Shown: one piece after another, positions 5,293-18,637 of the stretch | Position numbering within the stretch: position 1 is the stretch's first letter | Layout: each line of letters opens with the position of its first letter | NCBI RefSeq assembly: GCF_035989285.1 | Contig: NZ_CP108513.1 | Span: 6,944,001 to 7,008,000, forward strand | Reading direction: 5' to 3' | Source of the DNA: Streptomyces sp. NBC_01235 | GTDB taxonomy: Bacteria > Actinomycetota > Actinomycetes > Streptomycetales > Streptomycetaceae | Length of the DNA stretch: 64,000 nucleotides | Translations under genes and position numbers: made by a program | Notes under the pieces: generated by a model | Databases searched by the model: none | What the model saw: only the letters and a program-made list of their open reading frames with translations | Told to the model about the DNA's origin: nothing

Positions 5293-5765
5293 GGCGTGTA
5301 ACCCCCCGGCGGGATGCGGCGGGCGACCATCACCCGGTTCCAGCTGTTGATGGCGGTGATCAGGGCGATGAGGTGGGCCAGGCGCGTGTCGTCGAAGTGC
5401 CTGGCCGCGTCCGCGTACACCCCGTCCGGCACGAAGCCTCCCCCGGAGCCGAGAGCCTGGGAGGTGCCCCCGGTCAGGACGGTCACCGCCTCCGTCAGCG
5501 CGAGCGCGGCCCGCTCCCGCTCGTCGAAGACGTCCCCCGCCTCCTCCCACGCGCTCAGCAGGTCCAGCTGCTTCTCGCTCACGCCGTGCTCGCGGGCGAT
5601 CGTGAGATGCATGTCGAGGCAGAACGCGCAGTGGTTGAGCTGCGAGGCGCGGATCACGACGAGTTCGGCGAGCGCGGGATCGCCGAGCCCCTGCTTGGCG
5701 GCGGCGCTGAGCGTGGACATGGCCCGGCCGACCTCGCGGTCGAGGAGCCGCGTGCGTGCCGTCAC
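5289..5765 (-). CDS. Carboxymuconolactone decarboxylase/AhpD-like protein 1
   Basis: A 158-residue all-helical AhpD-fold protein. The catalytic motif HCAFCLDMH, preceded by VIRASQLN, carries the CxxC pair and following His of AhpD-type disulfide reductases. I start it at the GTG at 5765, which overlaps the stop of the second paralogue (GTGA); a longer upstream frame has no coding character. Compared with its two neighbours it carries an extra peptide of about ten residues (TSQALGSGGG) between EAVTVLTG and FVPDGVYADAA. That insert is encoded by a short palindromic DNA repeat, described separately. It likely acts with the adjacent paralogue in thiol-based detoxification or redox defence; the substrate is unknown. 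Confidence 0.87.
   Translation of the reverse strand: MTARTRLLDREVGRAMSTLSAAAKQGLGDPALAELVVIRASQLNHCAFCLDMHLTIAREHGVSEKQLDLLSAWEEAGDVFDERERAALALTEAVTVLTGGTSQALGSGGGFVPDGVYADAARHFDDTRLAHLIALITAINSWNRVMVARRIPPGGYTP
5436..5471. repeat. Dispersed palindromic repeat inserted in-frame in an AhpD-like gene
   Basis: On the plus strand the block opens GCCTCCCCCGG and closes TGGGAGGTGCCCCC, with a CTCCC...GGGAG inverted arrangement. The same outline, with a different central loop, is found at 52020-52056 in a non-coding region. In the minus-strand gene it codes a Gly/Ser-rich insert missing from both paralogues. I recall similar GGGGGCACCTCCC-type palindromes being common in Streptomyces genomes; this is recollection, not a search. 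Confidence 0.6.
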
Positions 5766-6271
5766 CCGAAGTCCCCCGCCTGGTAGTGCCCGGGCACCGC
5801 GCGGGTGGCCACCCCGAACCGGTTCCACGCGTTGATCACCGTGATCGTCGCGATGAGCTGGGCGAGCTCGGCCTCCTCGAAGTGCTTGGACGCCCGCTCG
5901 TACACGTCGTCCGGTACGAACCCGTCCGTGAGGACCGTGACCGCCTCCGTCAGCTCGATCGCCGCGAGCTCCTTCTCGGTGTAGAAGTGCCGCGACTCCT
6001 CCCACGCGGGGAGCTGCACGATGCGCTGGACTCTCTCGCCGGCCGCGAGGGCGTCCTTGGTGTGCATGTCGAGGCAGAACGCGCAGTGGTTGATCTGGGA
6101 GGCGCGCAGCCGCACCAGCTCCACCAGCTTGGGGTCGAGCCCCTGTTTGGCCGCGGTGTCGAGGCGGACCATCGCCTTGTAGACCTCGGGGGCGTGCTGG
6201 GCCCAGCGCATCCGGGCCGGTTGTCCGGTGGCGTACTCGGTGGTCGTCGTGGTGTCGTCGCTCGTGGTCAT
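5762..6271 (-). CDS. Carboxymuconolactone decarboxylase/AhpD-like protein 2
   Basis: A 169-residue AhpD-like protein starting at MTTSDDTTTTTEYATG. The redox motif NHCAFCLDMHTKDAL is intact, followed by the family helix TEKELAAIELTEAVTVLTDGFVPDDVYERASKHF and the C-terminal INAWNRFGVATR. The ATG at 6271 is preceded seven bases upstream by TAGGGT, a good TAnnnT -10 box, with no ribosome-binding site, so the message is probably leaderless. It is the first gene of the minus-strand operon and is divergent from the MocR regulator, 47 bases away. That arrangement suggests MocR control. Identity as AhpD-fold is firm; actual substrate is unknown. Confidence 0.88.
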   Translation of the reverse strand: MTTSDDTTTTTEYATGQPARMRWAQHAPEVYKAMVRLDTAAKQGLDPKLVELVRLRASQINHCAFCLDMHTKDALAAGERVQRIVQLPAWEESRHFYTEKELAAIELTEAVTVLTDGFVPDDVYERASKHFEEAELAQLIATITVINAWNRFGVATRAVPGHYQAGDFG

Positions 6272-6318
6272 GCCCTCGACCCTAGGAGCGAGGCGGCCCA
6301 GGGGTATGGTCCATTTCC
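6272..6318. promoter_or_regulatory. Divergent promoter region between AhpD-like operon and mocR
   Basis: These 47 bases hold two facing -10 boxes. TATGGT at 6305-6310 lies eight bases before the mocR ATG, and TAGGGT (minus strand, about 6279-6284) lies seven bases before the AhpD-like ATG. Neither start has a Shine-Dalgarno sequence, so both transcripts look leaderless. The sequence ATGGTCCAT around the mocR -10 is a plausible regulator contact, but no repeated operator pair could be confirmed. Confidence 0.5.
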
Positions 6319-7749
6319 ATGCCGAAAGCTTGGGCCACTCTGGGCGTCGACCTTCATCTGGAACCGACCGGACCACACCTGCGCCGAGGTCTGACCGACG
6401 CCCTGCGCGAGGCGGTCCGCACCGGCCGCCTCGCCCCGGGCACCCGGCTGCCCTCCTCCCGCTCCCTCGCCGTCGACCTGGGCGTCGCCCGCAACACGGT
6501 CGCCGACGCCTACGCCGACCTCGTCGCCGAGGGCTGGCTCACCGCCCGCCAGGGCTCGGGGACGCGGGTGGCGGTGGGGAGAGTGGTGGTTGCGCCGACG
6601 GGGTCGGCGCCCCGCCGACCCGAACACCACCGGCCCGCCTACGACCTGCGCCCCGGCACCCCCGACCTCGGCTCCTTCCCGCGCGCCGAGTGGCTCAGGG
6701 CGGCCCGCCGCGCCCTCACCGCCGCCCCCTCCGACGCCCTCGGCTACGGCGATCCCCGTGGCCGCGTCGAACTGCGCACCGCCCTCGCGGGTTACCTCTC
6801 CCGCGCCCGCGGAGTGCGCGCCGACCCCGAACGCATCGTGGTGTGCGCCGGGTTCGCGCACGGCCTGAAACTCCTCACTGCCGTCCTGCGGGCGCGCGGT
6901 GCGCGCACGGTCGCCGTCGAGTCGTACGGCCTGGACGAGCACTGGCGTCTGCTGGCGGCGTCGGGTCTGGCCACGACCCCGCTGCCGTTCGACGAACTGG
7001 GCACGGACACGGGGGAGTTGGCGGGGCGGTCCAGCGCGGTGCTGCTCACCCCGGCCCACCAGTTCCCGATGGGCGTGCCCCTGCACCGCGACCGGCGGGC
7101 GGCCGTCGTGGACTGGGCGCGGCACACCAAAGGCCTGGTCCTGGAGGACGACTACGACGGCGAGTTCCGCTACGACCGCCAGCCCGTCGGCGCCCTCCAG
7201 GGGCTGGACCCCGACCACGTGGTCTACCTGGGTACGGCGAGCAAGTCCCTGGCCCCCGGGCTGCGGCTGGGCTGGATGGTGCTGCCGCAGGGTGTGGTGG
7301 AGGAGGTGGTGGCGGCCAAGGGCGGGGTGGACACCTCCGGGGTCCTGGACCAGCTGACGCTGGCGGAGTTCATCACGTCGGGGGCGTACGACCGCCATGT
7401 CCGGGCGGCCCGCACCCGCTACCGCCGGCGCCGCGACGCGCTGGTGTCCGCCCTGGCCGGCCGCGCACCCGCCATCCGTGTCACCGGCATCGCGGCGGGC
7501 CTGCACGCCGTCCTTCGGCTCCCGGCCGGCACCGAGCCGTCGGTGGTCCGGGCGGCGGCCTACCAGGGCCTGGCGGTCGACGGTCTCACTCCCCGCTACC
7601 GCCACCCCGACGCGGTCACCGACCCGCTCGACGCGCTCGTCGTGGGGTACGGGACCCCGCCGGACCACGCCTGGTCCGGCGCGCTGGACGCGTTGTGCGG
7701 GGCGCTTCCTTTCGGTGAGAACGGCACCGGAATTCCTTTTCCCGGATAG
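6319..7749 (+). CDS. MocR-type regulator (GntR wHTH plus aminotransferase domain)
   Basis: A 476-residue PdxR/MocR-family regulator. Residues about 10-80 form the GntR winged helix, with GTRLPSSRSLAVDLGVARNTVADAYADL as the helix-turn-helix. From about residue 105 it is a fold-type I aminotransferase domain, with the PLP lysine in GTASKSLAPGLRLGWMVLP and the phosphate- and ring-binding segment LVLEDDYDGEFRYDRQP. Such proteins use PLP or an amine-PLP adduct as an effector and rarely catalyse transamination. It is divergent from two AhpD-like genes and followed by a third after 33 bases, the likely targets. The apparent leaderless ATG is at 6319. Confidence 0.92.
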   Translation: MPKAWATLGVDLHLEPTGPHLRRGLTDALREAVRTGRLAPGTRLPSSRSLAVDLGVARNTVADAYADLVAEGWLTARQGSGTRVAVGRVVVAPTGSAPRRPEHHRPAYDLRPGTPDLGSFPRAEWLRAARRALTAAPSDALGYGDPRGRVELRTALAGYLSRARGVRADPERIVVCAGFAHGLKLLTAVLRARGARTVAVESYGLDEHWRLLAASGLATTPLPFDELGTDTGELAGRSSAVLLTPAHQFPMGVPLHRDRRAAVVDWARHTKGLVLEDDYDGEFRYDRQPVGALQGLDPDHVVYLGTASKSLAPGLRLGWMVLPQGVVEEVVAAKGGVDTSGVLDQLTLAEFITSGAYDRHVRAARTRYRRRRDALVSALAGRAPAIRVTGIAAGLHAVLRLPAGTEPSVVRAAAYQGLAVDGLTPRYRHPDAVTDPLDALVVGYGTPPDHAWSGALDALCGALPFGENGTGIPFPG

Positions 7750-7782: not shown

Positions 7783-8268
7783 ATGACGAACAACAATTCC
7801 GTGTCCCGCGTGGCCCTCAAGAAGATAACCCCCGATGTTTCCGCCGCGATGGGGTCCCTGCACGGCGCCGCCGTTTCCGCGGCACAGGAAGCCAAGGTCG
7901 AGCCCGAGCTCCTGGAACTGATCAGGATCCGCGCCTCACAGCTCAACGGCTGCGCGTTCTGCCTCGACATGCACACGAAGGACGCCCGGGCCCAGGACGA
8001 GACCGAGCAGCGCATCTACGCGCTGAACGCCTGGCGGGAGACCCCCTTCTTCACCGAACGGGAGCGCGCCGCACTGGCGTTGACCGAGGCCGTGACCTTC
8101 GTGGCCGACGGTCATGTGCCGGACGACGTCTACGCCGAGGCCGCGGCGGTCTTCGACGAGGCGCAGGTGGCGGCGCTGATCTGGGCGGCCACGGTCATCA
8201 ACGCGTACAACCGGATCGCGATCGCGACGCGTATGGTGCCGGGGGCTTATCAGCCCGCCAAGAAGTAA
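7783..8268 (+). CDS. Carboxymuconolactone decarboxylase/AhpD-like protein 3
   Basis: A 161-residue AhpD-fold protein with the motif NGCAFCLDMHTKDARAQDETEQR and the family pattern RERAALALTEAVTFVADGHVPDDVYAEAA. It differs from its two paralogues in having NGC instead of NHC before the CxxC. There is no ribosome-binding site; a TAGAGT -10 box lies just upstream, so the start looks leaderless. It follows mocR in the same direction, but has its own promoter-like repeats. Together with the two minus-strand copies it makes three AhpD-like genes within 3 kb, all around one MocR gene. The three are too divergent for recent duplication. Physiological reaction is unknown. Confidence 0.88.
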   Translation: MTNNNSVSRVALKKITPDVSAAMGSLHGAAVSAAQEAKVEPELLELIRIRASQLNGCAFCLDMHTKDARAQDETEQRIYALNAWRETPFFTERERAALALTEAVTFVADGHVPDDVYAEAAAVFDEAQVAALIWAATVINAYNRIAIATRMVPGAYQPAKK

Positions 8269-8384: not shown

Positions 8385-9188
8385 CTATTTATCCGGCAGC
8401 GACTCCGGCAATCCGTCCAGCCAATTCCGCCATTCCCCCGCCCGGGCCGCGGCGCCGGCTGTCATCGGTTCTCCGATCCAGCCCGTCACCGGCCGGACCC
8501 CGTGCAGCGCGTTCACCAGCCACACCTCACGGCCCTCCAGCTCGGCCACGGTCCGTTCGCGGTGGACGACAGGGATGCCGAGGCGGTAGGCCCGCTCCCG
8601 GATCAGACCCACGGTCACTCCGGGCAGGACGGGGAGCCGGGGCGGCGGCAGGCACAGCGAGTCGTCCTCCCACCACAGCACGCTCGCGGTCGCCGACTCC
8701 AGCACCGCCCCGGACGGACCGACCAGCACCCCTTCCTGGGCCCCTTCCTCGACCGCCCGCCCCCGCACCCGGGCCAGCACGTCCAGGTCCGGGCCCTTGC
8801 GGCGGGGCGCGGTCCGCCGGTCCGGCTGGCCGACGGACCAGAGACGTATCTCCGTGCCGAGCGGCGGGGCGTGCCGCAGCCGCAGCCTCAACTCCAGGGA
8901 GCCGGCGGCGAGTTCAACCCGGGGAAACCACTCGCCGGTGCGCGGCAGCGCGGCGGTCACGTCCTGCCAGAACTCGACGAGCCGGCGCGGTCCCGGCCCG
9001 CCGCACTGCGCGCAGGCCCGCAGAAACCGCTCCCGGTGCCGGCCGTACCCGCGCACCCGGCCCTCGCGCACCAGCCACGAGTCCGCGACCAGCAGCGGCC
9101 CGTCCGCCACGGATTCCGGGGCGACGGTCAGCCCACGACTGGGCGTCCAGGTCGACAGCCCTTCACCGACGGTCAGTTGTGCACCCAC
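8385..9188 (-). CDS. pabC: Aminodeoxychorismate lyase-like class IV aminotransferase
   Basis: A 267-residue fold-type IV PLP protein, the type that releases pyruvate from 4-amino-4-deoxychorismate to give p-aminobenzoate. The probable PLP lysine is in RRKGPDLDVLARVRGRA, followed by LESATASVLWWEDDSLCLP (family E-xx-xSNxxW region) and the NALHGVRPVTGW segment characteristic of the ADC lyase branch. The GTG start at 9188 opens VGAQLTVGEGLSTW. The gene is the last of a six-gene minus-strand run that begins with an ABM-like protein and includes a fused PabAB synthase, which strongly supports ADC lyase over a branched-chain aminotransferase. Ten bases separate it from the flavin monooxygenase. Confidence 0.82.
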   Translation of the reverse strand: MGAQLTVGEGLSTWTPSRGLTVAPESVADGPLLVADSWLVREGRVRGYGRHRERFLRACAQCGGPGPRRLVEFWQDVTAALPRTGEWFPRVELAAGSLELRLRLRHAPPLGTEIRLWSVGQPDRRTAPRRKGPDLDVLARVRGRAVEEGAQEGVLVGPSGAVLESATASVLWWEDDSLCLPPPRLPVLPGVTVGLIRERAYRLGIPVVHRERTVAELEGREVWLVNALHGVRPVTGWIGEPMTAGAAARAGEWRNWLDGLPESLPDK

Positions 9189-9198
9189 TCGGTCCTCC

Positions 9199-10377
9199 TC
9201 AGTACCTTCCGCCCGCCACCGCCGGAGCCCCGCCCCGGGGCCCGTACGGCGCGTGCTCCAGCCAGGAGCCGCACGACGGCACCACGGGCGCGAGGGCGGC
9301 AGCCGCCCGCTGCCGGAGCCGTACGACCCGGCGCCGTGGCCGCAGATGGTCCAGGGCGACCCCGGCGGCCTCGCTGTTGAACAGCCCCGCCGCCCGCCGT
9401 ACGTCCGCGAAGGCGGCCACCGCCTCCGGCGTTCCGGCCGCCACGGCCTCCGCCGCCGCCGCCGCGTCGGCGATCCCGCTGTTCATGCCGCGTGCCCCGA
9501 ACGGCGGGAAGAGATGCGCCGCCTCGCCGACCAGCAGCACCCGCCCGTGCGGATCCGTGAAGGAGGCCGCGACCTTGCGCAGGAAGCGGTACGTCGACAC
9601 CCACAGGATCCGGTCGGCGTACCCGTCGCCCACGACCCCGGGCAGCCACTCCCGTACGGCGTCCTCGGTGCCGTAGGCCTCCTCCGGGTCGTCGTCGCGG
9701 CACTGGAGGTCCACCTGGAAGCCCCCGGTGAACGGCACCCGCATCACACTGCGCCCGCCGACCCCCGGATGCTCGTAGTGGAAGACCCGTTCCAGCGGCT
9801 GTTCGGCGCCCGGGACGTCGGCGACGTCCACGACGACGTGGAAGCCCTCGCCGCGCACACCCTCCATGGCGATGCCCAGCTCGCCCCGGACCGCCGAGCG
9901 GGCGCCGTCGGCGGCGACGACGTACCTGGCGCTCCACTCCCGTCCGTCCTCGCCGGCCAGCGTGACACCCGACTGCGAGGTGTGGACGCCCGTGATCCGC
10001 GCGTCCCAGACGAAGTCCACCCCCGCCCGCTCGCACGCGGCGCGCAGGAAGCGCTCGGTGTCCAGCTGGCGCAGGCTGGTGAAGGGCGGCAGCCCGGACG
10101 GGGGCGGGAAGGTACGGGAGTACACCTCGCGGCCCCGGTAGAGGGTGCGCCGGGTGTGCCAGGTCCGGCCGTACGCCGTGATCTCGGCGGCCAGGCCCGG
10201 GGACATCCCGTCGAGCAGCCGCAGCGTCTCGCGGTGCACGAACAGGGCCCGGCTGCCCGGCCGTTCGCGGTCCTCGGGGTCGGCCTCCAGGAGCACGACC
10301 GGCAGCCCGCGCGAACGCAGGCCCAGCGCGGCCGACAGACCGACCGGGCCGGCGCCCACCACGATCACCGGGTTCAC
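9199..10377 (-). CDS. FAD-dependent aromatic-ring monooxygenase (PHBH/UbiH type)
   Basis: A 392-residue class A flavoprotein monooxygenase. It shows the dinucleotide-binding IVVGAGPVGLSAALGLRSRG at the N-terminus, the DG motif YVVAADGARSAVR, and the third FAD motif VLLVGEAAHLFPPFGARGMNSG. In the third motif the usual GDAAH is GEAAH, so the conserved Asp that contacts the ribityl chain is replaced by Glu. Such enzymes hydroxylate activated aromatic rings, sometimes with loss of a carboxylate, using NAD(P)H and oxygen. The GTG at 10377 overlaps the upstream ligase stop (GTGA). In this operon a p-aminobenzoate-derived ring is the natural candidate substrate, but that is inference. Confidence 0.85.
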   Translation of the reverse strand: MNPVIVVGAGPVGLSAALGLRSRGLPVVLLEADPEDRERPGSRALFVHRETLRLLDGMSPGLAAEITAYGRTWHTRRTLYRGREVYSRTFPPPSGLPPFTSLRQLDTERFLRAACERAGVDFVWDARITGVHTSQSGVTLAGEDGREWSARYVVAADGARSAVRGELGIAMEGVRGEGFHVVVDVADVPGAEQPLERVFHYEHPGVGGRSVMRVPFTGGFQVDLQCRDDDPEEAYGTEDAVREWLPGVVGDGYADRILWVSTYRFLRKVAASFTDPHGRVLLVGEAAHLFPPFGARGMNSGIADAAAAAEAVAAGTPEAVAAFADVRRAAGLFNSEAAGVALDHLRPRRRVVRLRQRAAAALAPVVPSCGSWLEHAPYGPRGGAPAVAGGRY

Positions 10378-11948
10378 GCCCGCACGCTCTCTCGCGTCCC
10401 GGTCAGCATGCGGGTGATCTCCACCCGCTTCACCTTCCAGGTGGCGGTCATCGGCAGCTCCTCGAACCGCCACTGCCGCGGCTCGGCCATCGCGGGCAGA
10501 TCGGCCGTGGCCTCCCGCCAGCGCTCCGGATCCAGCGGCTGTTCGCCCCGGACACACACCACCGGTACCGGCTCGCGGTCCGCGCCCGGCACGATGACGA
10601 CCTCACGCAGTTCCTCCAGCCGGTCCATCAGGGCGTCCTCGACCTCCAGGTTGCTGTGCACGGCGTCGATCTGATCGACCTCACGGTCGATCAGACGCAG
10701 GGCGCCCAGCCGGCTCATGTAGCCCATGTCGCCCATCTGCCACCAGCCGCCGTCGAGCTGGCGCTCGTACTGCGCCCGCGCGCCCAGGTAGGTGAGGATG
10801 CGCCCCCGGGTGCGGGCCTCGATCCGCCCGGGCGTGCCCGGCGCGACCGGACGGCCGTCGGGGTCCGCGATCCGGACCCGGGTGAACCCGGGGATCCCGA
10901 TCCCGACCCGGCGCCCGTCCGCCCGCTCCGCGCTGCGCCGCGTGAACCACTGGAACGCGACGGGCCCCGTCTCGCTCTGCCCGTACAGCTGGATCAGCCA
11001 GGGCGTCCGGCGCTTCGACGCGCCCAACAGCCGCCGAACGGTGCGCGGATGGATCGCGTCGAACGTGGAGCCGTACGACTTCACCCGGGACAGTGGGGCT
11101 CCGGGCGCGTCGGCCAGCTCCTCCCACAGCACGAAGGTGTTGGGATGGGTCTCGACGATGCCGGGCCGGTGGCGGACCAGCAGCGGCCCCACGGCGGCCG
11201 GCTCCGGGTCGGTGATCAGCACGAGCGGGCTGCCGAAGTGCAGCAGGACGCCGAGCAGATGGTAGAAGCGCGAGTGCACGAACGACATGTGCAGCGCCGC
11301 CGTCTCACCGCGGGTGGGCCAGCCCATCGCCTTCTGCGGGACGAGCCGGTTCCACATGGTGTTCGGGCAGTGCACCGCCAGCTTGGGGACGCCGGTGGTG
11401 CCCGAGCTGTGGGTGATCAGGGCGGGTTCGCGCGGGTGCAGCCGCACGGGCGCGGGAGCCTCGGCGCCGGCGTGCCGCGCCAGGGGCTCGGCACCGGGCG
11501 CGTCGTCGACGGAGAGCGTCCGCCGGACGAGCCCGGAGAGGTCGACGCCCTCGAGCGGGCCGTCCAGCTTGGCACGGTCGGTGATCAGCCACGGCTGCCG
11601 GAGCCGTCCGAGAAGCTGTCCGACGACCGGCCCGGCCAGACCGGGGGAGAGGAGCACGGGAACCGCGCCGATACGGGAGACCGCGCAGGTCAGCAGCACG
11701 ATGTCGACGTTGTCCGTCTTGTGGACGACCACCTGCTCCGAGGGCCGCACCCCCGCCGCCCACAGCCGGCCCGACAACTCCTCGACCACGTCGGCCAGGG
11801 CCGAGTAGTCGAGGTCGACGCCGAGGTCGGGGTGGGTGTCCAACGGCCGGTCCAGGGTGACGAAGACGGCTCCGTGGCGGTCGGCCGCCCGCCGGAACAG
11901 CGGGCCCAGGTAGAACCCGCGGTCGGCGAGCAGGGGTTGCTGCGACAT
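10374..11948 (-). CDS. Adenylate-forming acyl-CoA synthetase/ligase (second of two)
   Basis: A 524-residue ANL-superfamily enzyme that activates a carboxylate as an acyl adenylate. Core motifs are present: the P-loop THSSGTTGVPKLA, LYGQSETGPVAF, WQMGDMGYM, the hinge region LIDREVDQID, and the C-terminal catalytic Lys in PMTATWKVKRVE. I use the ATG at 11948 (MSQQPLL) because GAGAGGA lies eight bases ahead; two upstream GTG codons at 11975-11978 overlap the previous stop but have weaker ribosome-binding sites. It sits between another ligase and the flavin monooxygenase. Sequence distance between the two ligases suggests different substrates. Which acid it activates cannot be read from the motifs. 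Confidence 0.85.
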   Translation of the reverse strand: MSQQPLLADRGFYLGPLFRRAADRHGAVFVTLDRPLDTHPDLGVDLDYSALADVVEELSGRLWAAGVRPSEQVVVHKTDNVDIVLLTCAVSRIGAVPVLLSPGLAGPVVGQLLGRLRQPWLITDRAKLDGPLEGVDLSGLVRRTLSVDDAPGAEPLARHAGAEAPAPVRLHPREPALITHSSGTTGVPKLAVHCPNTMWNRLVPQKAMGWPTRGETAALHMSFVHSRFYHLLGVLLHFGSPLVLITDPEPAAVGPLLVRHRPGIVETHPNTFVLWEELADAPGAPLSRVKSYGSTFDAIHPRTVRRLLGASKRRTPWLIQLYGQSETGPVAFQWFTRRSAERADGRRVGIGIPGFTRVRIADPDGRPVAPGTPGRIEARTRGRILTYLGARAQYERQLDGGWWQMGDMGYMSRLGALRLIDREVDQIDAVHSNLEVEDALMDRLEELREVVIVPGADREPVPVVCVRGEQPLDPERWREATADLPAMAEPRQWRFEELPMTATWKVKRVEITRMLTGTRESVRA

Positions 11949-11971
11949 GTGGCTGTTCCTCTCTGACACGG

Positions 11972-13603
11972 TCACCACGCGCCCTGGCGGACGAGATGGC
12001 GGCGGAGCTTTCCGGTGGAGGTGCGGGGCAGTGACGACACGAGGCTGACGCTGCGGGGGACCTTGAAGGCGGCGAGGCGGTCGCGGGCCAGTGCGACGAG
12101 ATCGTCGGCCAGACCGGACGGAGGGGACGCGACGGGTACGACGAAGGCGCGCAGCCGGCTGAAGCCGCGCCCGTCCGTGACGGCCGCGACCGCGACCTCC
12201 CGCACCGCCGGATGGGCGCGCAGCACGGCCTCCACCTCCAGCGGGGAGACGGTGATCCCGCCTACCATCTCCATGTCGTCGGTCCGGCCCAGATGCCGGT
12301 AGGCGCCGTCCGGTTCACGGCGCGCCCGGTCGTGGGTGGCCAGCCAGCCGCCGACGAGGGTGCGTTCCGTCTCCTCGGGCCGGTTCAGATAGCCGGACGT
12401 CACCGTCGGCCCGCGCACCCACAGTTCGCCTTCCGCGCCGTCGGGCACGGGCCGCCCGGCACGGTCGCGCAACTCCACATCGAAGCCCGGTACGGGACGT
12501 CCGACGGTGCCCGGGTGGTTGTGGCCGAGGCTGTTGGCGCAGAAGGCGTGACCGGCCTCGGTGGAGCCGATCTGCTCCAGCACCGGCGCCCCGAGCAACT
12601 CGCCGACCCGCTCGCCGAGTTCGCCCGGCATCCCCTCGCCGGCCGACACCGCGGCGCGCACCGAGGCGAAACAGGCCGCGTGCCCGCTGCCCCGGTCGGC
12701 GACCAGCGCCGCGTACGCAGACGGCACGGAGTAGAGCAGGGTCACCCGGTGCCGCGTGACGAGCTCGTCGACGGCGGCGGGCGTCGGACGCCGGTCCACC
12801 AGCACGGCGGACGAACCGGAGAAGAGGGGGAAGACGAACGCGTTGCCGAACCCGTAGGCGAAGTACAGCTTCGACACGGACAGGGTGACGTCGTCCTCGG
12901 TGATCCCCAGCAGGCGCCTGCCGATGAGGTCGTGGTACTCCTTCGGGTCGCCGTGCGTGTGCACGACCCCCTTCGGCCGACCCGTGGTGCCGGAGGTGTA
13001 CTGCACGTACAGGGGTGTGTGCGCGTCGACCGGGTGGGCGGGGGCCGGCTCGGCGGACGGGGCGAGCGCGAGGAACTGGTCGGCGCCCAGTCGCGCCCGC
13101 CCGTCGAACCGGTCCTCCAGCCCCGGCCCGGTCAGACACAGCACGGCTTCGGTGTCGTCGGCCATGAACGTGTGCTCGGCGGCGGGCAGTTCGGGATTGA
13201 CGAGGACGGCGACACCCCCCAGCCGGGCGACACCGAGGAAGGCCGCCACCCAGGCGATCCCGTCGGGCACGGCCAGCAGCACCCGGTCCCCGGGGCGCAC
13301 CCCGTGCCCGGCGAGCACACCGGCCGCCCGTGCCCCGAGCGCGTGCACCTCGCCGTGGGTCCACCCCTGATGCCCCTGATGAAACGCGACCCGACCGGCC
13401 CACCCGCGCCGCTCGGCGAGATCGTCGAGGTAGGCGGCGAGGTTGCCGGGGGCGCCGGAGTCGGCGGGGTCCGGGGCCGGGACCTCGGCCGTGAGGTGGG
13501 TGCGGGGAGGCGCGTGGTGGTCGGCGCCGGGGCCGCCCTGGGGCGCGGTGGGGTGCGGAGCGGCCGTGGCACGGGGAGCGGTCGTGGGGTGCGGGGTCGT
13601 CAT
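11972..13603 (-). CDS. Benzoate-CoA ligase-like adenylate-forming enzyme
   Basis: A 543-residue ANL enzyme with P-loop QYTSGTTGRPKGVV, IGSTEAGHAF, LGRTDDMEMVGG and the C-terminal Lys motif PRTSTGKLRRH. The segment KLYFAYGFGNAFVFPLFSGSSAVL and the GSTEAGHAF loop closely follow the benzoate/4-hydroxybenzoate-CoA ligase branch, whose binding pockets accept aryl acids. The first about 50 residues are a His/Thr/Pro-rich low-complexity extension. The ATG at 13603 overlaps the PabAB stop (ATGA), coupling the two. With PabAB and PabC in the same operon, activation of p-aminobenzoate or an oxidised derivative is a reasonable hypothesis. Enzyme class is firm, substrate inferred. Confidence 0.85.
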   Translation of the reverse strand: MTTPHPTTAPRATAAPHPTAPQGGPGADHHAPPRTHLTAEVPAPDPADSGAPGNLAAYLDDLAERRGWAGRVAFHQGHQGWTHGEVHALGARAAGVLAGHGVRPGDRVLLAVPDGIAWVAAFLGVARLGGVAVLVNPELPAAEHTFMADDTEAVLCLTGPGLEDRFDGRARLGADQFLALAPSAEPAPAHPVDAHTPLYVQYTSGTTGRPKGVVHTHGDPKEYHDLIGRRLLGITEDDVTLSVSKLYFAYGFGNAFVFPLFSGSSAVLVDRRPTPAAVDELVTRHRVTLLYSVPSAYAALVADRGSGHAACFASVRAAVSAGEGMPGELGERVGELLGAPVLEQIGSTEAGHAFCANSLGHNHPGTVGRPVPGFDVELRDRAGRPVPDGAEGELWVRGPTVTSGYLNRPEETERTLVGGWLATHDRARREPDGAYRHLGRTDDMEMVGGITVSPLEVEAVLRAHPAVREVAVAAVTDGRGFSRLRAFVVPVASPPSGLADDLVALARDRLAAFKVPRSVSLVSSLPRTSTGKLRRHLVRQGAW

Positions 13604-15996
13604 CGGGTGGTCTCCTCTGCGGTGGCCCGGGCGGGGGCGGACCTGCCCGGGGCACCGGTGCGTGCCGGTGTCGCGGCGGGCGAGCGCCGGCCGGCCGGTC
13701 CCGGCTCCGGGGGCTGCCGACGCGTCCCGCGGCCCACGGGCCGCGCCTCGTCACCGAGTTCACCGAGTTCACCGAGATCGGCGGTCGTGCGGCCGGCTCG
13801 CCGCAGCGCGTTCACCTGGGCCTCGGCCGCCTCCGTCGCGCGGGACGGCGCCCGTGTCCTGCCCGCCGTGTGCTCCCGCAGGGCCCGCATCTGGGCGGCC
13901 GTCTTCAGGAGCATCTCGTCGTACTCCGCGACCGGGTCGGAGTCCAGGACGATCGCGCCCCCGGCGCCCAGCTGCATCAGGCCGTCGGCCAGGACGGCGG
14001 TGCGGATGACGATGTTGAGGTCCGCGCCTCCGCTGCACCCCAGGTAGCCGAGGGCCCCCGAGTACACGCCGCGCGCCTCGGTCTCCAGCCCGTCGATGAT
14101 CTCCAGCGTGCGCAGCTTCGGCGCGCCGGTCATCGACCCGCCGGGGAAGCAGGCGCGCACGCAGTCCACCGCGTCCGTGCCCTCGCGCAGCCGCCCCTCG
14201 ACGGTGGACACGAGCTGGTGCACGGTCGCGTACGTCTCCGTGGCCATGAGCCGGGAGACGCGCACGGTCCCGGTCCGGCAGACCCGCCCCAGGTCGTTGC
14301 GGAGCAGGTCGACGATCATCAGGTTCTCGGCGCGGGTCTTGGCGTCCGCCACCAGCGCGTCCCGGAGCTGGGCGTCCTCCTGCGGATCCGCCCCGCGCGG
14401 CGCGGTGCCCTTGATGGGCTTGGCCTCGGCGACGCCGTCCCGGGTGACCCGCAGGAACCGCTCGGGCGAGGAGCCGACCACGTCGAGGTCGCCGAATCTC
14501 AGATAGGAGGCGTACGGGGCCGGGTTGACGCGGCGCAGCACCCGGTAGAACGCGTACGCGTCGTCCGGAGCGGGTAAACGGGCGGCGTCGGTCAGACAGA
14601 TCTCGTAGCTGGTGCCCGCGCGCAACTCCCGTTGGCAGGCCTCGATGTCCGCGAGATAGGTCGCCCGGTCCCGCACCAGCCACGGCTCGACGTCACCGAG
14701 GCCCGGCGCCGCCGCCTCGGCGGGCGCGGGCACCGGCGGCCGGTCGGCTTCCGCGGGCAGCGAGGTGAGCTGGGCCAGGGTGCTCTCCAGCCACTCCGTG
14801 GCCTCCCGGGTGGCCTGGGGGGTGTCCTCCGCGAGGCAGACCGCGTAGGTGAAGCCCTTCTGGTGGTCCACCGCGATCAGCCGGTCGGCGAAGAGCCAGC
14901 AGGCGTCCGGAGTGGCGGAGCGGTGCCGGTTCGGGGAGCCGCAGTCGGCCTTCGTCTCGTAGCCGAAGTAGCCGACGTAGCCGCCGGTGAAGTCGAAGGG
15001 CAGCCCGGTGGCGTCGACCCGGCGGTTCGCCAACTGCCGCTTGAGGTAGTCGAAGACGCTCGCCCGGACCTTGCGCGCCGGCCGCCCGGCCCGCTCGATC
15101 TCGCAGGTCCCGGCCTCGACGTCGTACCGGACGAACTCGGCGAGCGGACCGCTGTCGTCACCGAAGAACGAGAAGCGGGAGAGCCCCTGCTCGACCCGGG
15201 AGCTGTCCAGCCAGAACGCCCGCGGTGAGGCGGCGTACATCCGCGTGAAGGCGGCCTCCGCGTCGATCGCCTCCGCGATGCGGCGGGTGTGCAGCCGGTG
15301 GGCGGGGCCGCCGGCCCGGCGCGGGCGGGGGATGGGAAGGGCCATCGTGGGGCCGCGGCTCGGCATCGCCGCCGCGGCCGGCGTGACCGCGGTGTTCTTC
15401 GTCCGCAGCTTGCGGGCCCGCTCGGCGGTGAGGTTGCGGAAGTTCACCAGCATCCGGTGGCCGTACTCGGTGAGCACCGACTCCGGGTGGAACTGCACGC
15501 CCCACAGGGGCCGTTCGCGGTGGCGCAGCCCCATCAGGACGCCGTCCTGCGCCCAGGCCGTGGCCTGAAGGGAGTCGGGCAGCGGCTCGCGCACGGACAG
15601 CGAGTGGTAGCGGACCGCGGTGAAGTTCTGCGGCAGCCCCTGGAACAGGTCCCGCCCGTCGTGCCGGACGGCCGACAGATACCCGTGCCGGGGCTCCGGG
15701 GCGGGCACCACCCGGGCGCCCTCCCCGTGCGCGATGCCCTGGTGGCCGAGGCAGACGCCGAGCACCGGCACCGTGGACTCGGCGAGCACCCTGGCACTGA
15801 TGCCGAAGTCACGGGCCTTCGCCGGGTGCCCCGGACCCGGTGACACCACCACGTTGTCGAATTCCGCAAGATCGGGAACGGAGTTCGCGGGGGCGTCATT
15901 GAGGATCACCACCGGCTCCTCGCCGTTGACCTCGGCGATCAGCTGGAACAGGTTGTACGTGTACGAGTCGTAATTGTCGATGAGCAGGGTCTTCAC
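13600..15996 (-). CDS. pabAB: Fused aminodeoxychorismate synthase (PabA-PabB)
   Basis: This 798-residue protein makes 4-amino-4-deoxychorismate from chorismate and glutamine. Residues 1-190 are a class I glutamine amidotransferase with VSPGPGHPAKARDFG, the nucleophile Cys82 in LGVCLGHQGIAHG and the His-Glu pair in GVQFHPESV. After a Pro/Arg-rich linker, the rest is a chorismate-binding domain with PFDFTGGYVGYFGYE, EAKPIKGTAPRG (Lys of PabB-type enzymes) and CFPGGSMTGAPK. A low-complexity tail of about 90 residues follows the catalytic domain. Free-standing folate-pathway enzymes in this genus are usually unfused or shorter, whereas fused copies are typical of antibiotic clusters. It is the second gene of the operon and couples to the ligase by ATGA. 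Confidence 0.95.
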   Translation of the reverse strand: MKTLLIDNYDSYTYNLFQLIAEVNGEEPVVILNDAPANSVPDLAEFDNVVVSPGPGHPAKARDFGISARVLAESTVPVLGVCLGHQGIAHGEGARVVPAPEPRHGYLSAVRHDGRDLFQGLPQNFTAVRYHSLSVREPLPDSLQATAWAQDGVLMGLRHRERPLWGVQFHPESVLTEYGHRMLVNFRNLTAERARKLRTKNTAVTPAAAAMPSRGPTMALPIPRPRRAGGPAHRLHTRRIAEAIDAEAAFTRMYAASPRAFWLDSSRVEQGLSRFSFFGDDSGPLAEFVRYDVEAGTCEIERAGRPARKVRASVFDYLKRQLANRRVDATGLPFDFTGGYVGYFGYETKADCGSPNRHRSATPDACWLFADRLIAVDHQKGFTYAVCLAEDTPQATREATEWLESTLAQLTSLPAEADRPPVPAPAEAAAPGLGDVEPWLVRDRATYLADIEACQRELRAGTSYEICLTDAARLPAPDDAYAFYRVLRRVNPAPYASYLRFGDLDVVGSSPERFLRVTRDGVAEAKPIKGTAPRGADPQEDAQLRDALVADAKTRAENLMIVDLLRNDLGRVCRTGTVRVSRLMATETYATVHQLVSTVEGRLREGTDAVDCVRACFPGGSMTGAPKLRTLEIIDGLETEARGVYSGALGYLGCSGGADLNIVIRTAVLADGLMQLGAGGAIVLDSDPVAEYDEMLLKTAAQMRALREHTAGRTRAPSRATEAAEAQVNALRRAGRTTADLGELGELGDEARPVGRGTRRQPPEPGPAGRRSPAATPARTGAPGRSAPARATAEETTR

Positions 15997-16026
15997 CAGC
16001 CCACCTCCCTAGGGTCGTTCTCGGGG

Positions 16027-16638
16027 CTACGCGGTCCGTTTATGCCGTCCGCGGAGCGCCTGGAGCGGTGGATACAGCCATTTCTTGAAGAAACGCTGAA
16101 GGCGGGGCATGAGAATCCACGTGACGAGGGCTGTCACACACAGGCAGAGCAGCAGTGTGCGAATGAACGGATTGAGGCCGCCGAGATAAGGAAGTGCGAT
16201 CACGTTGAAGAGGAGCACCGGCGGGAAAACCGCGCTCATGTTCACGAACCACAACTTCCATTTGGACGGCGGGGCCGGCGCCTTCGGGGTGGCGGTCTGG
16301 GAGTCGAACCACACCTTGGACCCGCGCACGCTCTTGCGGTCCGTCTGCACGGCGATCCCGGCGACCCGGGCGTCCCACTGCATGCGGGCGCTCGAGTCCT
16401 CCCAGGCCCGGGCCGTTCCTTCGCTGGCGAAGCGATAGACGACATGCCACTCCGCCTCTCCGTCGACTAGCACGCCACCCCCGAGGAAGCCGGGCTGCTG
16501 CGCACTCGCGCCCAGCATGGCCCACCCCCAGGAGTGAAAGTCGGCCTCACGGCCCGGCGTCACGCGATAAGCCGAGGTGACGGTGACGGGATTACTGGTC
16601 ACGGTGTCGAGTACGGAGCGGAAGGCCGCAGCGTTCAC
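16027..16638 (-). CDS. ABM-domain protein with C-terminal membrane helices
   Basis: A 203-residue protein in two parts. Residues about 15-105 resemble the antibiotic-biosynthesis monooxygenase ferredoxin-like fold (VTSAYRVTPGREADFHSWGWAMLGASAQQPGFLGGGVL followed by WHVVYRFASEGTARAWEDS). Residues about 125-185 contain two hydrophobic helices (FPPVLLFNVIALPYLGG and TLLLCLCVTALVTWILM) and a basic C-terminus. ABM domains act as cofactor-free mono-oxygenases or dimeric scaffolds. The GTG at 16638 is preceded by GAAGGA, close by. It is the first gene of the minus-strand p-aminobenzoate operon, with 30 bases to PabAB. It may be a membrane-attached partner, but I cannot assign a reaction. Confidence 0.75.
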   Translation of the reverse strand: MNAAAFRSVLDTVTSNPVTVTSAYRVTPGREADFHSWGWAMLGASAQQPGFLGGGVLVDGEAEWHVVYRFASEGTARAWEDSSARMQWDARVAGIAVQTDRKSVRGSKVWFDSQTATPKAPAPPSKWKLWFVNMSAVFPPVLLFNVIALPYLGGLNPFIRTLLLCLCVTALVTWILMPRLQRFFKKWLYPPLQALRGRHKRTA

Positions 16639-16822
16639 ACATCCTTCAAACTTTTACTACCGTCCCCGACTGTCCGAAACGTAACTCTTCATGGGTCTTT
16701 CGGCGAGCTTGCCATCTTCTGTCGAGCGGTACTGCGGGTAACCCTTTTCGGAATTCCCGGAAGCGCTTGCCGGTAAGTCGGGAGAAGTGCACGATCGAGT
16801 TCCCGAACCGAAGGAGATGTCC

Positions 16823-17602
16823 ATGTCCAGGTACGACTGGAATCTGACCCACGAGGGAATTGAACGGGCCCGTTCCGCGATCGAACCCGCTCGGAAAGAG
16901 GTGACCGCCCACCCCATTTACCAGCGGGTGAGCACCCGGGAAAACATGGCGACGTTCATGGCGCACCACGTGTTCGCCGTCTGGGACTTCATGTCCCTGC
17001 TCAAGTCGCTCCAGCGGGACCTCACCTGCGTCGACGTCCCCTGGGTGCCGCGCGGCTCGGAGGTCGGCCGGCGGCTCATCAACGACATCGTCCTCGTCGA
17101 GGAGAGCGACGAGCTGAACGGCGGCTTCACCAGCCACTTCGAGCTGTACCGCGCGGGCATGGACGAGGCGGGCGCCGCCACGGCCCGGATCGACACCTTC
17201 ATCGCGCTGGTCGGCGAGGGCCACGACGTGCCGTCGGCGCTGCGGGTCGCCCAGGTCCCGGCCCCCGCCGCCGAGTTCGTGCGCACGACCTTCGACATCA
17301 TCGCCGACCGGCCCCTGCACTGCCGGGCCGCCGCCTTCGCCTTCTCCCGGGAGGACCTCATCCCGGACATGTTCGACCAGGTGATCAAGAAGGAGGGCAC
17401 CGACCGGTTCCCGCTCTTCTGCGACTACCTCGCCCGCCACATCGAGGTCGACGGCGAGGAGCACACCCCCATGGCCATGCAGATGGTGGCCGACCTGTGC
17501 GGCACCGACGACACCCGCTGGCAGGAGGCCGTCGAGACGGCGACCCTCGCACTGGGGGCACGGTCCCGTCTGTGGGACGGCATCACCGCGGCGCTGGTCT
17601 GA
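16823..17602 (+). CDS. DUF3050 haem-oxygenase-like protein (candidate diiron oxygenase)
   Basis: A 259-residue, helix-rich protein of the DUF3050 family, which falls in the haem-oxygenase-like fold. It has the run [17 protein letters not shown] (His48 and His49) and the acidic/His motif HIEVDGEEH at residues 206-214, resembling metal ligands of haem-oxygenase-like diiron oxygenases. The ATG at 16823 has AAGGAG six bases upstream; the ATG at 16817 abuts that site and is less likely. It is divergent from the p-aminobenzoate operon across a 180-base intergenic region, suggesting shared control. Candidate chemistry includes amine oxidation or oxidative C-C cleavage, as known for other members of the fold. 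Family placement is fairly sure, function inferred. Confidence 0.75.
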
Positions 17603-18512
17603 CCGGTGCCTCCGGTGCCTCCGGTGCCTCCGGTGCCTCCGGTGTCTCCGGGGCCGGCACCGGTTCCGGCGCCTCCCCGAACCGGGCCAGCGCCAACGCC
17701 CCCGCCACGGCGACCGCGAACCCCAGCACGGCCAGCCAGCCGAGCCCCTCCCGGGTACGGTCCCCCAGCCACACCACCCCCACCAGCGCCGGACCGATCG
17801 TCTCTCCGATCACTATCCCGGCCGTGGCCGTCGTCACCGACCCCCGCTGCAACGCCGACGTCAGCAACAGGAACGCGGCCCCACCGCCCAGCAGCAGGGC
17901 GTACGTCGCCGGGTTGGCGAGCAGGTCCCAGGGTGCGAGCGAGTCGATCAGCCGCACCGCCACCTCCACCACCCCGAACCCGCACCCGGCGCCCAGCCCC
18001 AGTACCAGCGCCCGCCCCCGCCCGGTGAGCCGTCCGCCGACCAGGCCCAGCAGCAGCACCCCGCCCGCCGCACCGAGCATCGCCCACGGCAACGCCTCAG
18101 GACCGCTCTCCTGGCCCTCCGTCCCCGAGGCCAGCCCCAGCATCGCCAGCCCCGCGCACACCACCCCCACGGCCAGCCACTCCATCCGGCTCAGCCGCAC
18201 CCGCAGCAGCCGCGCCGCGACCACCGCCGTCACCGCCAGGCTGGACGCGAGGGCCGCACCGACGGCATAGATCGGCACCGACCGCAGCGCGGCGATCTGG
18301 AACAGGAACCCGACCCCGTCCAGCCCCAGCCCCGCCAGATACCGCCACTGCCGCACCGCCCGCAGCAACAGCGCCGCGTCCCCGCCGCCTCCACCACCCC
18401 CGCCCCGTCCGTCGCTGCCGTCGACGGCGGCGCGCGCCGCCATCGCCTGCAACACCGTCGCCGTACCGAAGCAGACCGCCGCGCCGAGGGCGCACACCAT
18501 TCCAAAGAGCAC
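17583..18512 (-). CDS. DMT/EamA-type membrane transporter
   Basis: About 309 residues with nine or ten hydrophobic helices and the internal duplication typical of drug/metabolite transporters (for example [19 protein letters not shown] and [34 protein letters not shown]). A Gly-rich loop [12 protein letters not shown] interrupts the first half. I start at the GTG at 18512; the ATG at 18500 is an alternative. The C-terminus is a Pro-Glu-Ala repeat ([13 protein letters not shown]) encoded by a 9-base tandem repeat, and the gene end overlaps the DUF3050 gene by 20 bases in convergent orientation. It could export the product of the neighbouring cluster, but position is the only support. Confidence 0.72.
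17605..17649. repeat. 9-bp tandem repeat at convergent gene ends
   Basis: GGTGCCTCC is repeated four times exactly and a fifth time with one change (GGTGTCTCC). On the minus strand it codes the Glu-Ala-Pro repeat at the end of the DMT transporter, so copy number can vary without breaking the frame. Confidence 0.85.
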
Positions 18513-18637
18513 GAAAGGACTGTAGGGGAGCGGCCGATGGGCGGGCCGCCCGCGGGCCCCATTCGACCGGTGTCTAGGCTGACGGCCGGAAATCGCCGTG
18601 GGGCGATGCGACAACGGGGACACGGGGAGACGGGAAC

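Follow-up and report, generated by a model that had tools for sequence, protein, structure and literature searches.

According to a passage of PMC13061610, 469 diazo clusters have been predicted and 20 linked to products. The adenylate-forming enzymes with solved structures in this field include Tri17, an N-nitrosylating ligase (PDB 9bq0 and 8tf7), and the diazotase CmaA6 (8ztz and 9ijf), as named in a review passage and in the PDB titles, and an excerpt of PMC10777205 reports 72 of 134 ava-related clusters without avaE/avaD. Here we describe a locus of Streptomyces sp. NBC_01235, found in a 64,000-nucleotide stretch (the window; contig NZ_CP108513.1, positions 6,944,001 to 7,008,000) of its complete 11.09-Mb chromosome, in which seven genes form a mobile conserved biosynthetic cassette. 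The cassette is common in Streptomyces and apparently undescribed; in the open-licence literature we found no matching cluster and no p-aminobenzoate diazotase cassette. On balance it probably makes p-aminobenzoate from chorismate and submits it to nitrite- and ATP-dependent diazotisation by the ligase LigB, using nitrite from a source outside the cluster; all of this chemistry is predicted from sequence.

A mobile conserved cassette of seven genes

The unit consists of a gene for an AhpD-like carboxymuconolactone decarboxylase family protein (CMD; 7783-8268, plus strand; Pfam CMD 5e-19, ahpD_dom over cut-off) and a six-gene minus-strand operon. In coordinate order, the operon encodes a PabC-like class IV aminotransferase or aminodeoxychorismate lyase (8385-9188), a predicted class A, FAD-dependent aromatic flavin monooxygenase (FMO; open reading frame [ORF] 9199-10557, start probably 10377; FAD_binding_3 2.6e-47), the putatively diazotase-like adenylate-forming ligase LigB (10374-11978, possible later start 11948; AMP-binding 1.2e-35), LigA, a predicted benzoate-CoA-type ligase (11972-13603; TIGR02262 385 versus 375.25 bits, PDB 2v7b 7e-98), the fused aminodeoxychorismate synthase PabAB (13600-15996; GATase and Chorismate_bind domains, TIGR00553 341.3 versus 328.4 bits), and an ABM-domain protein with a hydrophobic C-terminal half (16027-16638; ABM 23.2 bits versus a cut-off of 23.1), whose membrane stretches were judged by eye only. 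With the starts chosen, neighbouring genes overlap by 4 bases (FMO/LigB and LigA/PabAB) or 7 bases (LigB/LigA), or are separated by 10 (PabC-FMO) or 30 (PabAB-ABM). LigA and PabAB exceed their curated NCBIfam cut-offs; PabC, LigB, and the adjoining drug/metabolite transporter (DMT)-like protein exceed no specific one.

Searching one-genome-per-species contigs for relatives of LigB returned 115 stretches, of which the best 80 were kept (77 titled Streptomyces). Each gene was scored, using identity thresholds, at loci whose sequence extends about 10 kb on the side concerned. The seven-gene unit is intact in 54 of the 55 loci flanked by 10 kb in both directions, and LigA and PabAB were each found in 62/62 loci, ABM in 61/62, FMO and CMD each in 68/68, and PabC in 67/68. 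The two genes next to the unit in the window are less constant (DUF3050 34/62, DMT 36/62). One or more of the genes that flank the cassette in the window recur at 39 of the 55 loci, and none at the other 16. The DMT gene occurs in 32 of the 39 loci at this window-type site and in 0 of the 16 elsewhere; the corresponding counts for DUF3050 are 20/39 and 9/16, and its gene, when present, lies 136-319 bases from ABM and in the opposite orientation at all 34 loci. Because of these counts we conclude that the cassette occupies different chromosomal sites, that DUF3050 travels with it when present, and that DMT stays with the site; the transporter was accordingly rejected as a cluster member. Clustering of ORF families gave the same pattern with lower counts, since the simple gene caller misses genes.

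The distribution of the cassette was also assessed in 150 Streptomyces genomes drawn evenly across the genus, own genome included, in which LigB at 63% identity or more defined 19 carriers. This set and the survey loci have some genomes in common and are therefore not independent. Genes for an Opu binding protein and a GSP-synthetase lie 14.1 kb apart in the window, 9.8 kb of which runs from CMD to DUF3050. These flanks are only 3.9-5.2 kb apart, as an empty site would be, in 7 of 16 non-carriers hand-picked from the 150 (G011, G020, G024, G033, G067, G104, and G109; G and L numbers label genomes and loci, G000 being the own genome). Among the other nine, the flanks are separated by 9.4 and 17.9 kb (two), are far apart or on other contigs (four), or lack a GSP-synthetase match (three).

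These results bear on the initial annotation, which had listed the operon genes together with a DUF3050 protein and a DMT transporter. All of the named genes were found, and its tightly coupled minus-strand operon, facing DUF3050 protein of haem-oxygenase fold, ABM protein, and benzoate-CoA-ligase-like enzyme are borne out. The same applies to the lack of polyketide synthase (PKS) or non-ribosomal peptide synthetase (NRPS) domains, none of which appeared in Pfam scans of chosen ORFs at 1-36 kb of the window. Its suggestion that the genes interrupt core chromosome is right for the window site because of the seven non-carriers with close flanks. The borders require revision: CMD had been omitted, DUF3050 is optional, and the transporter, a DMT-like protein (17583-18623, minus strand) below the Pfam EamA and NCBIfam DMT cut-offs, adjoins the cassette without belonging to it.

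The G+C content of CMD (0.667), ABM (0.655), and DUF3050 (0.684) is lower than that of the five genes in between (0.727-0.758). The window contains two CMD paralogues, one tied to the site (CMD1, 5762-6376) and the cassette gene described above (CMD2); 17 of 19 non-carriers have a match to CMD2, with relatives at 53-59% identity (best 59%). One of the 19 carriers, G069, retains PabAB and PabC (L036, G069:C1:862001-882000), with LigA and FMO not found. Because these are missing and its LigB P-loop is degraded (HGPGAAGIPR), we read this locus as decay, rejected it as a minimal PabAB-LigB-PabC set, and did not use it as evidence.

p-Aminobenzoate supply and the relatives of LigB

The motif PIKGT, which we take to mark PabB as PIAGT marks TrpE, is present in the window's PabAB, and each of the 35 loci in which the script located the motif has PIKGT in its cassette PabAB; the own genome's TrpE carries PIAGT. 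For PabC, Aminotran_4 (1e-25) agrees with the name given initially, and the protein falls below every aminodeoxychorismate-lyase cut-off (best 43.1 versus 253 bits), so that PabC-like is the appropriate term. Three more chorismate-binding matches occur in the own genome besides that of the cassette. One is TrpE, over cut-off, and another is a 354-aa PabB-like protein with PIKGT, below cut-off on the best PabB model (349.5 versus 408.55), whose gene precedes an ORF that its sequence assigns to the Aminotran_4 type. PabAB and its PabC-like partner are thus predicted to convert chorismate to p-aminobenzoate as a second route apart from the folate pathway, in line with the dedicated supply proposed initially.

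The only Pfam domain detected in LigB is an N-terminal AMP-binding domain, with an intact ATP-binding P-loop (HSSGTTGVPK). Its best solved relatives in a PDB search are Tri17 (9bq0/8tf7, 108 bits), 9xb8 (75), CmaA6 (8ztz, 64), and 4-chlorobenzoate ligase (61). A profile of LigB orthologues ranked Tri17 (119 bits) and 9xb8 (108) above 4-chlorobenzoate ligase (76), FadD5 (72), and CmaA6 (70). Although deposited as FadD, 9xb8 groups by sequence with the AvaA6-type diazotases, because the own genome's AvaA6-type ligase matches it at 319 bits (CmaA6 831, Tri17 539) and the next family at 85. LigB is about 20-30% identical to the solved diazotases and N-nitrosylases compared, and the glycine-rich A8 segment present in LigA is replaced in LigB. 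The profile ranking toward Tri17 and 9xb8 is suggestive, not decisive, of a relative of nitrite-using diazotases. In a tree of LigB proteins, in which LigA and the AvaA6-type outgroup form very long branches and no named CreM sequence was included, the cassette clade has support of 100/100 and a clade linked to the aspartate-nitrosuccinate (ANS) pathway 98/96; placement of plasmid LigB next to the cassette clade is weakly supported (82/59). By sequence, LigB falls into an adenylate-forming branch with relatives encoded in clusters that make nitrite through CreE/CreD.

This genomic linkage was quantified in the 150-genome set, counting nitrosuccinate lyase over its curated cut-off. Among the matches listed, 38 LigB relatives have 44-53% identity, of which 24 have a nitrosuccinate lyase encoded no more than 25 kb away (25 if two sub-cut-off matches are allowed) and 14 have none nearby; without terminal-repeat copies the linkage is 21/35, or 17 of 24 genomes. 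Random placement would give about 0.2 linked relatives, assuming one lyase per 8.5 Mb. For more distant relatives (37-43%), 8 of 24 among the matches listed are near a lyase. No AvaA6-type diazotase was found at the ANS-linked loci L022, L037, L038, L039, L059, and L021/L055, where the best match (23-28%) is LigB or LigA itself, and the AvaA6-type loci L056 and L058 contain no LigB above 27%. In contrast to the plasmid cluster, other ANS-linked loci have an aminobenzoate gene of anthranilate-synthase type, as in L022 (over cut-off, with the motif PISGT). In L038 (G023) and L039 (G134) two LigB genes face each other about 10-13 kb apart with CreD/CreE in between, and an SRPBCC gene adjoins LigB in L038 and L059.

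Among the 19 carriers, nitrosuccinate lyase over cut-off is encoded elsewhere in 9, NarG over cut-off in 8, and either in 14; the own genome has both. Its ava-type cluster (L056, G000:C1:1232001-1252000), 5.7 Mb from the window, encodes an AvaA6 diazotase and a nitrosuccinate lyase over cut-off as well as a CreE homologue. A second CreE homologue (62% identity) lies at L057 (G000:C1:3682113-3683945), with no nitrosuccinate lyase found in the surrounding 18 kb.

Proposed pathway and alternatives

In the pathway we propose, PabAB and its PabC-like partner would convert chorismate to p-aminobenzoate. LigB would then activate nitrite at the expense of ATP and nitrosate the aryl amine, either on p-aminobenzoate itself or on a derivative; the product would be a diazonium/diazo (or N-nitroso) compound. 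The nitrite could come from an ANS module elsewhere in the genome, from nitrate reduction, or from other sources; the ava-related clusters without avaE/avaD are a precedent for such an arrangement. More speculatively, FMO may first hydroxylate the position next to the amine, which would stabilise the diazo group, LigA may activate the carboxylate for conjugation, and DUF3050 may contribute an optional N-oxidation. The initial annotation had proposed activation and oxidation, possibly of the amine; the amine is retained here as the target, with LigB as the likely agent and an N-N bond, instead of plain oxidation, as the likely result.

Several observations weigh against diazotisation. CreE/CreD were found within about 10 kb in 0/55 cassette loci, and nitrosuccinate lyase within 25 kb of the cassette in 0/19 carrier genomes; in five of the 19, neither NarG nor nitrosuccinate lyase exceeds its cut-off, in a search that did not extend to assimilatory nitrate reductases or to other sources. 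Some matches of the LigB profile to plain CoA ligases (76 and 72 bits) equal that to CmaA6 (70). On the AvaA6 equivalog (NF058622, cut-off 975) LigB scores 67.7 bits and the L056 ligase 1048.5. The structure model of LigB is poor (pLDDT 60), with FadD5 and CmaA6 tied in the fold ranks. LigB keeps an A10-type lysine of acyl-activating ligases, and the analysis identified neither an AvaA7-like nor a product-defining enzyme.

LigB might instead be an ordinary aryl- or acyl-activating ligase in a pathway where p-aminobenzoyl-CoA is made, hydroxylated, and transferred to an acceptor molecule without N-N bond formation. That C-terminal lysine, the intact ATP-binding motifs, the near-equal profile scores, and a cassette holding no nitrite genes all fit this scheme, which we consider unlikely although a serious competitor, since the top solved matches of LigB are Tri17 and 9xb8, its sister clade is linked to nitrosuccinate lyase (24/38 among the matches listed), the A8 segment of LigA is replaced, and LigA is already available for acyl activation. 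Diazotisation might instead merely remove the amine, giving benzoate or 4-hydroxybenzoate for activation by LigA, whose closest relatives are benzoate-CoA ligases. Diazotisation-dependent deamination has precedent in avenalumate and p-coumarate biosynthesis, as described in part of PMC10777205. We judge this variant improbable, no AvaA7-like NAD(P)-dependent reductase having been recognised among the cassette proteins. That these genes simply provide p-aminobenzoate for folate synthesis, as the PabAB and PabC-like enzymes alone might imply, is extremely improbable and was rejected: the LigB cassette is confined to 19 of 150 Streptomyces, and the own genome holds another PIKGT PabB-type protein adjoining an Aminotran_4-like ORF. 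The alternative of primary folate synthesis, raised beforehand as what could overturn the initial annotation, therefore fails.

The remaining alternative makes the DUF3050 protein (16787-17602, plus strand, homologues favouring a start at 16817; 317.7 bits, over cut-off) the core enzyme, N-oxygenating p-aminobenzoate with an AurF-like outcome. Among structures it is closest to HamA, from fragin biosynthesis; the HamA/HrmI-type, haem-oxygenase-like fold and the conserved E/H/E/H/D/H residues, keeping the E/H/D metal-ligand pattern, would suit such a role, as would its presence in 11/19 carriers and 0/19 chosen non-carriers. However, 28 of 62 loci have no DUF3050 beside the cassette and 8 of 19 carrier genomes have none at all, the seven genes staying in each case, and we give this possibility little credence. 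DUF3050 was also considered as a substitute for the missing ANS nitrite source, in which case genomes with DUF3050 should tend to lack nitrosuccinate lyase; this is unsupported because the lyase occurs in 7/11 DUF3050 carriers and 2/8 other carriers (Fisher p 0.17). The main text of PMC8154892 does not mention DUF3050.

Returning to nitrosation by LigB, we can also envisage, as a long shot, that strains with DUF3050 combine N-hydroxylation of p-aminobenzoate (or of its CoA or hydroxylated form) by the HamA-like enzyme with nitrosation by LigB, using nitrite, to yield an aryl diazeniumdiolate, whereas strains without DUF3050 would stop at the diazonium/diazo compound. Such a product would be a natural cupferron-like metal chelator, made by an NRPS-, PKS-, and ANS-free route to aryl N-N compounds in well over 100 Streptomyces genomes.

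Because the cassette lacks the usual marks of PKS/NRPS and CreE/CreD, searches keyed on these would miss it; relatives were nonetheless detected in 115 stretches when one genome per species was searched, and reactive diazo-type compounds may have an overlooked origin in the cassette. Should LigB prove to be a p-aminobenzoate diazotase, a folate precursor would be linked to nitrite chemistry by an easily tested enzyme with a commodity substrate. It would then have to be asked how cells that lack a dedicated nitrite source match cytosolic nitrite to a reactive aryl diazonium.

Comparison with described clusters

A close relative of the window's arrangement is on the linear plasmid pADI95-16a of Streptomyces sp. 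ADI95-16, which encodes PabAB, LigA, LigB, FMO, and PabC in the same order together with a CMD gene, the proteins being 46-62% identical to those of the window. The LigB of pADI95-16a recurs at 99.4% identity in six further plasmid records, among them plasmids of Mg1 and S. goshikiensis. In contrast to the window, the plasmid cluster contains CreE and CreD (798 versus 650 bits), a berberine bridge enzyme (BBE)-type oxidase, and desaturase, fatty acyl-AMP ligase (FAAL), and acyl carrier protein (ACP) genes, and DUF3050 and ABM were not found on it by tblastn. The plasmid cluster (L021/L055, NZ_CP033582.1 190000-239445) also has a second FMO copy, and its FAAL, desaturase, and ACP genes look polyyne-like.

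The penzonemycin cluster pzm (PMC9323291) resembles the cassette in having two ligases, an acyl-CoA ligase and a CreM homologue, and a chorismate-derived aminobenzoate; its CreM homologue adjoins an SRPBCC gene, as do the LigB relatives in L038 and L059. It differs in its 3-hydroxyanthranilate core and in-cluster CreD/CreE, and is likened here by description, not by sequence. The ham/pvf/mgo clusters of fragin and valdiazen share a DUF3050 protein with the window (HamA is 37% identical by structure alignment) but are NRPS-based, use an amino-acid substrate, and have neither PabAB nor LigB; literature passages on HamA leave its reaction unsettled. CreM, AvaA6, CmaA6, Aha11, and Tri17 have the adenylate-forming fold seen in LigB, whose sister clade is linked to nitrosuccinate lyase. 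The cassette is set apart from these systems by the lack of adjoining CreE/CreD, by a LigB far below the AvaA6 cut-off, and by its predicted amine source, which is p-aminobenzoate, in contrast to the 3-amino-4-hydroxybenzoate or hydrazone of known diazotases and N-nitrosylases.

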